Part shown: positions 61,825-64,000 of the stretch, piece by piece
Numbering within the stretch: position 1 is the stretch's first letter
Layout of the letters: each line of letters starts with the position of its first letter
Assembly (NCBI RefSeq): GCF_016598535.1
Contig: NZ_CP066779.1
Location: 3,286,001-3,350,000, forward strand
Direction: 5' to 3'
DNA: 64,000 nt
From: Rhodococcus sp. P-2
Lineage (GTDB): Bacteria; Actinomycetota; Actinomycetes; Mycobacteriales; Mycobacteriaceae
Translations under genes and position numbers: made by a program
The notes under the pieces: generated by a model
Told to the model about the DNA's origin: nothing
The model's input: the letters and a program-made list of their open reading frames with translations, nothing else
Database searches by the model: none

Positions 61825-62289
61825 TCAGAAACTGTCGACCGGGCAGAGGAATTGGCGGGACTCGTTCCAGAAGGGGAAGAGGTCTGTGGTCGTGGCCGCG
61901 GGGTGGTCGATCCCGGCGAGAGTGTAGAAATCGAGGGTCGTCCGACCAGCGGTTGCGCTGACCTCGCATGCCTGCAAGCTCAGCTTTGCCTCCGCCACGA
62001 AGCCGATGCTGCGGGCAAAGGGACCGAGAGTCCCGGCATTGACGAAGCTCTCGAGATTTTGTCCCCACTGGTTGAAGTCCGACTGCAAAGCAAAGCTGCA
62101 TGTTTCGCCGAACAACTCGGCGCAGGTGGTCGGCTGCCCACCGATCGTGTGCTCCGTATCGGCAAGCTCGTGAGAGGTGCGTTCGCGCGGGGATCCGGAA
62201 AGCAACAGCAAGATGGCGACGGCCAAGGCAACCACCAGAAGGATGCTTGCGGCCGTTGCCAGTATCGCCTTCACAATCCCTCGATCCAC
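61825..62289 (-). CDS. Membrane-anchored or secreted hypothetical protein
   Basis: A 154-aa protein. The N-terminus MDRGIVKAILATAASILLVVALAVAIL (first 20 residues in essence) is one uncleaved membrane helix; the remaining 110 residues are extracytoplasmic and contain four cysteines (PTTCAELFGETC, SLQACEVS, FLCPVD), which could form disulfides. The start is GTG 62289. It converges with the permease gene. I do not recognise a family. Confidence 0.65.
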   Translation of the reverse strand: MDRGIVKAILATAASILLVVALAVAILLLLSGSPRERTSHELADTEHTIGGQPTTCAELFGETCSFALQSDFNQWGQNLESFVNAGTLGPFARSIGFVAEAKLSLQACEVSATAGRTTLDFYTLAGIDHPAATTTDLFPFWNESRQFLCPVDSF

Positions 62290-62442
62290 GTAAGTTCATG
62301 AGGGCAACCGATTTTCGAACACCGGACATTACATCTGTACCCGCGGCGTTCAGGGTCCAAACATCGACCAGGCTGGGAGCCGTCCGTCAGTCTGGGGGAT
62401 CTGTTATCGGAACTGTGAGGGAGGATCAACACTCCCTTCCAC

Positions 62443-62482
62443 TATCAATGTATATCTCACCGGGGGCCTTGCGGCAAGGCCC
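62443..62482 (+). promoter_or_regulatory. Rifamycin-associated element (RAE) and -10 region upstream of helR
   Basis: GGGCCTTGCGGCAAGGCCC (62464-62482) is a perfect 8-3-8 palindrome and closely matches the known actinobacterial RAE, GGGGCTTGCGGCAAGGCCCC (20 bp). AT-rich -10-like sequence TATCAATGTATATC lies directly upstream (62443-62456). The 270-bp gap 62290-62559 otherwise shows nothing. The RAE precedes rifamycin-inducible resistance genes in other actinomycetes. Confidence 0.75.
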
Positions 62483-62559
62483 GGGTAGTGCCGCAGAATG
62501 GCTCTTCCGATCCCGCACGACCGACTACGGGATCGGAACAGCCAGCGGACGTGAGGGCA

Positions 62560-64000
62560 CGTGCCAACCCAGGGATACGAAGAAGAACTGCGATCCGAGC
62601 GGAACTATGTGGAGGGGCTCTACGCACGCCTCGATGCGGAGCGCGCACGAGTCAAAGGCAGGTACAACACCGCTCTGCGCGGAAACGGCGAGGCACTCAT
62701 GGAACGCGACGCCGAGGTGCGCGCACTTGCCAAAGAAGTGAAAAGGCTGGACGTAGCCGACAACGGACTGTGCTTCGGCCGGTTGGACTCGCTGTCGGGT
62801 GAGACTTCGTACATCGGCCGAATCGGCCTTCTCGATGCGGACAACGACTACGAACCGGTGCTGCTCGATTGGCGGGCACCGGCGTCTCGCGCGTTCTACG
62901 TGGCCACCGCTGCCAACCCGGAAAACATGCGTCGACGCCGTCAGTTCCACACCCGTAGTCGACGCGTGGTCGATTTCACCGACGAGGTACTCGGACGCCC
63001 CGACGGCGTAGAACACGACGCGCACAGCGACTCCGCCCTGCTCGCGGCAGTCAACGCACCCCGCGGTGAAGGAATGCGGGACATCGTGGCGACGATCCAG
63101 GCCGAGCAGGACGACATCGTCCGGCTCGAGCACCCAGGGGTGTTGGTGATCGAGGGTGGCCCGGGTACCGGGAAGACCGTCGTCGCCTTGCACCGCGTCG
63201 CCTACCTGCTCTACACGCAGCGAGAGCGGATGGAACGTCACGGCGTTCTCGTGGTCGGGCCGAACCCGGCGTTCTTGAACCACATCGGCCGCGTACTGCC
63301 CTCGCTGGGAGAATCCGACGTGGTGTTCATGACCACCGGTGATCTCGTTCCCGGCCTGCGCGTCACCGCCGAGGACACCCCGGCCGCCGCCGAACTCAAA
63401 GGTTCGCTGAAGATCCTCGACGTTCTCGGCGCAGCGATTGCCGATCATCAGCGATTACCCGAGAACCCGCTGTTGATCGAATTGGCAGACGTCACCGTGC
63501 GAATCGACGCCGAAACCGCGGAGTGGGCCCGAGAAGAAGCCCGTACGAGCGGACTCCCCCACAACGACGCTCGCACTGTGTTCACCGAAATCCTCACCTG
63601 GGCGCTGACCGAACGGGCGATAGCGCGGATCGGCAAGGGGTGGTTGACACGCAGTGACCGTGAAGCCTGGGAGCAAGTGCGGGCAGACCTGACCGCAGAG
63701 CTGGTGGAAAACAGCGCGTTTGCCGCGGCGCTCGACACCCTCTGGCCGATTCTGACTCCGAAAGAGCTACTGACACAGCTGTTTACTTCTCCGGCACGAC
63801 TACGCGCGGCAGGCGCGGACGAGAAGCTGCTCCGCCAGGACGGTGACGGCTGGACCGTCTCGGACGTTCCGTTGCTCGACGAGTTGGTGGACATGCTCGG
63901 CCGGGACAAGCCCGTCGACCAGAGTGCCGAACGTGAACGCCGCGACGAGGCTGCGTATGCAGCGGGCGTACTGGACATGATGATCAGCCGCGAGGACCTG
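62560..64000 (+). CDS. helR: HelR-type RNA polymerase-recycling helicase (3' truncated by window)
   Basis: A superfamily 1 HelD-family protein, open to the end of the window (about 480 codons seen). An N-terminal coiled-coil-like region (about 1-50: EEELRSERNYVEGLYARLDAERARVK) is typical of HelD; Walker A is EGGPGTGKTVVALHRVAYLLY (about 197-217), preceded by VLLDWRAPASRAFY. HelD proteins remove RNA polymerase from DNA; HelR displaces rifamycin from it. The GTG at 62560 is after GTGAGGGCAC. The RAE 77 bp upstream makes HelR the best call. The remaining C-terminal motifs are not visible. Confidence 0.85.

Follow-up and report, generated by a model that had tools for sequence, protein, structure and literature searches.

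A rifamycin-associated element within a conserved block ahead of a probable HelR-type gene in Rhodococcus sp. P-2

The window analysed here, a stretch of 64,000 nt of Rhodococcus sp. P-2 DNA, ends in a gene that is very probably helR, a HelR-type HelD gene controlled by a rifamycin-associated element (RAE), and inducible rifamycin tolerance through such an RAE-controlled HelR is supported by the sequence. This assignment is supported because the genome holds two exact RAEs, one before helR and one before iri, because the HelR protein passes HelR models and keeps the tip of its PCh loop, and because all 24 of the 24 genus genomes with an RAE-type helR carry an RAE and the second HelD has none. 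Counting against it, 18 of 79 relatives have no RAE in the DNA fetched, and the leader that contains the RAE also folds well as RNA. The function of HelR and of the RAE is inferred from relatives. By this analogy, rifamycin would raise transcription through the RAE, HelR would enter RNA polymerase, where its PCh loop would displace rifamycin and free the stalled polymerase, and Iri would inactivate rifamycin. In the locus itself, a gene-facing promoter (box at 62494-62499) may use the RAE as its -35 region, and a putative dimeric factor would read the palindrome as double-stranded DNA.

The near match to the RAE named in the original prediction was borne out far beyond chance. The element, GGGCCTTGCGGCAAGGCCC at 62464-62482 (+), is a perfect 19-bp palindrome (9+1+9) and differs by one mismatch from GGGGCTTGCGGCAAGGCCC, which we take to be the RAE consensus; an unchanged copy of GGGGCTTGCGGCAAGGCCC stands ahead of iri in this genome. 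With up to 3 mismatches allowed, chance would give a mean of 0.04 matches in the window, and two or more matches were found in 1 of 100 shuffles. In the whole genome (a single contig of 6,340,135 bases, 6.34 Mb), the pattern GGGSCTTGCGGCAAGSCCC occurs exactly at two places, before helR and before iri (G000:C1:785640-785658); matches with one mismatch were only these two sites in the opposite-strand reading, two mismatches gave no match, and three mismatches gave seven other places. The reversed control pattern has 11 + 12 matches (23) in the whole genome at up to three mismatches, and thus the seven 3-mismatch places can be put down to noise, unlike the two exact matches. A chance palindrome was accordingly rejected, on the shuffle statistics and on the whole-genome counts against the reversed control. 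What marks an RAE, a 19-bp palindrome ahead of a rifamycin-resistance gene, is found here; the predicted adjacency to a HelD-family gene also stood, but the distance is 78 nt to the GTG at 62561 instead of the 77 bp first given.

The HelD-family gene is real. helR (HelD class II) starts with the GTG at 62561 and encodes 740 aa; its first 480 codons lie in the window (62561-64000, +) and it continues to G000:C1:3350783, the whole gene being G000:C1:3348561-3350783. Reading the completed gene for HelR motifs, a check suggested together with the original prediction, gave two HelR-type models passed and the PCh tip residues present. The whole protein reached 1457 bits against NF041465 (HelD_MYCSM, cut-off 1051) and 1390.9 bits against NF041258 (motor_HelR_2, cut-off 1100), and stayed below the cut-off of NF041254 (motor_HelR, 481.5 vs 750). 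Its alignment to M. smegmatis HelD (PDB 6yxu_H, 1232 bits) is gapless, and it keeps both acidic residues at the tip of the PCh loop, E484 and D485 (M. smegmatis numbering), which are located just past the window's last residue, 480; according to the review PMC10719064, altering E484/D485 compromises rifampicin resistance. A UvrD-like motor (PF00580, 42.8 bits, cut-off 23) was found at residues 181-226, and the nucleotide-binding loop GGPGTGKT is visible in the translation. Due to the fact that HelR is 97% identical to its counterpart in Rhodococcus erythropolis NBRC 15567, we take the host to belong to the R. erythropolis group. Among relatives, the E/D loop tip occurs just as often in the absence of a near RAE (24/28) as in its presence (40/51); the PCh tip was hence rejected as a marker of RAE control, and it marks no drug-responsive HelRs.

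The second exact RAE stands 42 nt before the TTG, or 63 nt before the ATG, of iri, whose product passes the rifampin monooxygenase Iri model NF000343 (1041.3 bits, cut-off 950). A search of the genome for arr (PF12120) gave no match. The second HelD (C1:6064179-6066419) is 47% identical to the window HelR, falls below all HelR cut-offs and had no RAE in the genome pattern search; a HelD of this second-copy type (46-48% identity) was found in 28/28 genus genomes.

In the genus, 20 of 28 genomes have the RAE at up to one mismatch, and the reversed control gave 8 matches in total. A close HelR (69-100% identity) is found in 11/28 genomes, in G012 as broken pieces only, and a HelR of 39-41% identity in 13/28; the one protein of this ∼40% type that was tested (L163) passes NF041254 with 1256.9. 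Four further genomes (G015, G021, G023 and G025) have an RAE with two mismatches ahead of helR. In all 24 of the 28 genomes with an RAE-type helR, a same-strand RAE with at most two mismatches lies upstream (positions read by eye), either directly ahead of helR or with an rgt gene in between (e.g. G003, G004, G007, G009, G016 and G024), and the four genomes with no RAE-type helR (G006, G014, G018 and G019, the last of these only 75% complete) gave no RAE at up to one mismatch. In the order, exact GGGNCTTGCGGCAAGNCCC occurs in 102 of the 200 genomes drawn, with a control match in 2; in the class, the RAE pattern occurs in 47 of 148 genomes, with no control match in the table.

The association was also approached from the protein, with 80 relatives of the window protein, 79 of which had enough upstream DNA. 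Within ∼320 bp an RAE was present in 51/79 (25 exact, 23 with one, 2 with two and 1 with three mismatches). Ten of the remaining 28 have an RAE within the fetched 1.5 kb (up to three mismatches allowed, 0 to 2 found), and in eight of these ten a rgt-like stretch follows the RAE, of full length in six and short in L169 and L171. The other 18 of the 79 close relatives showed no RAE at up to three mismatches in the up to 1.5 kb of DNA fetched; four of them show part of a rgt gene, and the fetched DNA ends inside it in L166, L198 and L212. Because a rgt-like gene intervenes, helR can look RAE-less if only the adjoining DNA is read. Larsen et al. 2021 (PMC8655204) give the Nocardia brasiliensis helD as having no recognisable RAE, whereas in both N. 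brasiliensis loci here (L186 and L239) the order is RAE (2 and 1 mismatches, respectively), rgt, helR, on the assumption that this helR is the gene listed by those authors. The arrangement of RAE, rgt-like gene and helR in one direction was seen in L186 and L239 and likewise in L172, L177, L216 and L236.

The genes downstream of the element are of few kinds. We read 112 RAE sites, made up of the complete genus set (42) and 70 of the 141 places listed for the order (30 picked automatically and 40 by hand), and 110 of the 112 stand ahead of a helR of either of two types or of an iri, arr, rgt or rph gene: window-type helR 10, ∼40%-type helR 36, iri-like 27, arr 18, rgt 11, rph 8, and 2 unknown. 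Four of the 27 iri-like genes (L094, L119, L131 and L139) share only 33-42% identity with Iri and could encode other monooxygenases. The names arr, rgt and rph come from representatives, of which arr (L120) passes the Arr equivalog cut-off (141.2 vs 130), and rgt (L030; 508.9 vs 800) and rph (L132, cut off at the locus end; 785.5 vs 999) have Rgt and Rph, respectively, as best match but below the cut-off. L047, L050 and L112 were assigned by eye from the first residues, and L049 (in G012) from a gene remnant. When sites were turned to the gene, the centre base of the RAE was G in 99/112 and C in 13/112, and a fixed orientation of this base was rejected; the turn of the 13 C-centred sites was confirmed by the gene in 12, and that of L144 by the block described below alone.

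For analysis of the surroundings, sites were turned to the gene and those at least 80% alike removed, leaving 94 of 112. Conservation extends from about -30 to +45 around the RAE, i.e. over a block of ∼75 bp. Comparison of different gene types gave a mean identity of 0.45-0.67 within the upstream part of this block and of 0.60-0.76 within its downstream part; far upstream and far downstream, the values are 0.25-0.31 and 0.26-0.32, respectively. Two ANNNT offsets stand out, +32 (94/94) and -17 (90/94), the next best reaching 45/94. The gene-facing -10-like box at +31 to +36 is ANNNT in 112/112 sites and TANNNT in 0/112; for the upstream box (-17 to -12), the away-facing strand gives TANNNT in 107/112 and the sense strand in 10/112. 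A spacing of 19 bp separates each box from one TTGC[GC]G half of the RAE, the gene-facing half being TTGCGG in 83/94 and TTGCCG in 11/94 non-redundant sites, and the two hexamers overlap inside the element. At the expected away-facing start (-24), G is found in 111/112. In other orders, which were not used for finding the rule, 25 of the 59 listed places gave the away-facing TANNNT in 23 and the downstream ANNNT in 24; these places were oriented by their downstream block, probably wrongly in the case of L249, and L258 has neither box. The protein-anchored sites have the away-facing TANNNT in 48/51, and both boxes by the ANNNT rule in 49/51.

In the window, the predicted gene-facing promoter P2 would consist of the -35-like RAE half TTGCGG (62469-62474, +) and, 19 bp from it, the -10-like box CAGAAT (62494-62499, +), after which a start near 62505 would follow. 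The corresponding candidates on the other strand are the RAE half TTGCCG (62472-62477, -) and, again at 19 bp, the box TACATT (62447-62452, -). A 154-aa frame at 61825-62289 (-) faces away from helR, downstream of the predicted away-facing start, and a Pfam search with it gave no match. A scan of 62280-62600 with the plain sigma-70 consensus, which needs spacers of 16-18, found no promoter, which counts against both promoter readings discussed below, as far as that consensus goes.

Since ANNNT is the same on both strands, the upstream box may be a sense or an away-facing -10. We give roughly even chances to the layout published for M. smegmatis, i.e. tandem sense promoters, with P1 upstream of the RAE and P2 having the RAE over its -35, so that the upstream box would be a sense -10; in the window, the overlapping hexamer CAATGT (62446-62451, +) is the alternative sense P1 box. 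Two sense starts have been mapped in M. smegmatis, with the RAE ∼20 bp downstream of the first, according to PMC10719064. In our sites the sense reading retains both conserved letters of ANNNT in 107/112, and position -5 holds a purine, which fits a start, in 107/112. However, the full TANNNT is on the sense strand in only 10/112 sites against 107/112 on the away-facing one, no column exceeds 0.25 bit at the place of a sense P1 -35 (-41 to -36, as calculated before the 13 sites were re-oriented), and a start ∼20 bp upstream of the RAE misfits a sense box at -18 to -13.

Tentatively, as a possibility we rate short of likely, the RAE would serve two back-to-back promoters as a common -35 core within a rigid block of ∼75 bp. 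Polymerase would hold only one of these promoters at a time, and rifamycin, directly or via a factor on the palindrome, would tip the competition to the resistance gene. Only one promoter would be occupied at a time because the TTGC[GC]G halves, both 19 bp from their boxes, interlock. According to PMC6448022, 79% of mapped M. smegmatis promoters have ANNNT and 63% of these TANNNT, with more transcript from TANNNT than from VANNNT. By this yardstick the away-facing reading is the better -10, TANNNT being present in 107/112 away-facing boxes and in none of the 112 gene-facing ones. A spacer of 19 is long for sigma-70, which counts against back-to-back promoters, and the similarity of the predicted away-facing start to the published distance is purely numerical. 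If the back-to-back arrangement is true, it would be an actinobacterial counterpart, with other geometry, of the dual-promoter alarm of B. subtilis.

A putative dimeric DNA-binding factor that reads the palindrome as double-stranded DNA is the most likely interpretation of the element itself. We take a dimer as indicated because the outer GGG and CCC, for which a -35 has no need, are kept in 92-94 of 94 sites, and because a further TGCNGCA copy follows the RAE core at 19 bp (TGCCGCA at 62489-62495, + in the window), which is the best non-zero self-match of the core (shift +19 scores 8.0, the next 2.8). Part of the constancy of the outer triplets comes from the search pattern itself, which prescribed them (with one mismatch tolerated in the genus and 0 in the order) but left open positions 4 and 16 and all sequence beyond the 19 bp; in the protein-anchored set, where three mismatches were allowed, 48/51 sites still have none or one. 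A third TGCNGCA copy 19 bp upstream was not supported (score -1.4). The whole block as an extended palindrome was weak as a candidate, since the mirror alignment was best at shift 0 with an identity of 0.311 and shift +5 gave 0.303; aligning the two blocks in the same direction likewise gave a maximum where the shift equals the box spacing, 48.

The palindrome might instead act in the transcript, as a leader hairpin for attenuation or stability and not as DNA, which we consider very improbable. Folding of the region 62458-62565 gave -56.6 kcal/mol (z -4.1 relative to 200 shuffles); the RAE forms a hairpin, a stem-loop is predicted in the helR transcript leader at 62499-62544 (+), and a start upstream would place the RAE in the transcript. 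Against this, palindrome positions 4 and 16 are pairable in 25/94 sites versus 22.1 expected, i.e. no more often than expected and with no co-variation, and an RNA stem as the selected feature is thus not supported; -10-like boxes lie at fixed distance on both sides of the RAE; the leader scan showed no terminator-like site, and 62200-62700 matched no Rfam family at E up to 1; and control is transcriptional according to PMC10719064. An inverted repeat resembling the stem-loop at 62499-62544 can be seen in close relatives, e.g. L038 and L049. By eye, L007, L019 and L031 have a GCAAG...CTTGC repeat between RAE and iri, just before the ribosome-binding site, which could pair with the RAE halves in the transcript.

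That helR is a housekeeping HelD recycling stalled polymerase, with a palindrome of no drug-specific role, is very unlikely: HelD proteins do recycle stalled polymerase, and relatives with no near RAE also have the PCh loop tip, but a separate RAE-less HelD (47% identity) of a type present in 28/28 genus genomes exists in this genome, and the RAE is common to helR and iri here and to arr, rgt and rph in relatives.

The pairing of RAE and HelR is already established, and the locus adds one Rhodococcus to a known rifamycin-response system. Its closest known counterparts are M. abscessus HelR (MAB_3189c) and M. smegmatis HelD (MSMEG_2174), represented by NF041258 and NF041465; the window HelR passes both models and has E484/D485. 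Upstream of M. smegmatis HelD, the RAE overlaps the -35 of P2 (PMC10719064), and the block here may be read likewise; the genus is different, and the published P1 is sense whereas the upstream box here was read as away-facing. In S. venezuelae, the same review gives one monooxygenase gene and helR as the RAE genes, two in all, so that an RAE likewise precedes helR (SVEN_6029, NF041254) and a monooxygenase gene; the window protein, however, is far below the NF041254 cut-off, and that type of HelR (∼40% identity) is the one found in 13/28 genus genomes. Larsen et al. 2021 (PMC8655204) likewise include class II HelD of Rhodococcus, namely rhod_09075 of Rhodococcus sp. 008 and REQ_15310 of R. equi, in a HelR group defined by an upstream RAE. 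B. subtilis helD has, according to PMC12802891, a weak gene-facing promoter beside an apparently stronger opposing one, as may be the case here, but its promoters converge and lack an RAE, whereas those here, if the reading is right, point apart and share it.

How the RAE senses rifamycin is open according to PMC12802891 and PMC10719064. The fixed block geometry, the away-facing TANNNT and the order RAE-rgt-helR in N. brasiliensis were not found in the literature searched, and the primary HelR/RAE papers may hold part of them. Comparison across relatives matters more than the locus itself: a block of fixed geometry across unrelated gene types leads to exact predictions on the strand of the upstream start, the -10 bases and the bases of the protein site.

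In G012, the helR behind the RAE is broken, its first 35 codons being ∼24 kb from the rest (C46:114887-117012 and 140858-140962), and the remainder consists of several pieces in overlapping frames. L144 has an exact RAE before an Amidase_2 protein (836-1507, -), outside the usual gene set, and L105 has one before an unassigned frame with no Pfam match, where the upstream box is absent. In seven Amycolatopsis loci (L219, L223, L226, L233, L235, L238 and L240), helR is preceded by a common variant of the element, GGGACTTGCCACAAGACCC, and the surrounding block is preserved. In Pseudonocardiaceae, HelR-type genes with no near RAE (L190, L192, L201, L202 and others) share another upstream block, which by eye contains TTGACA and ACAATAAAAAAT.
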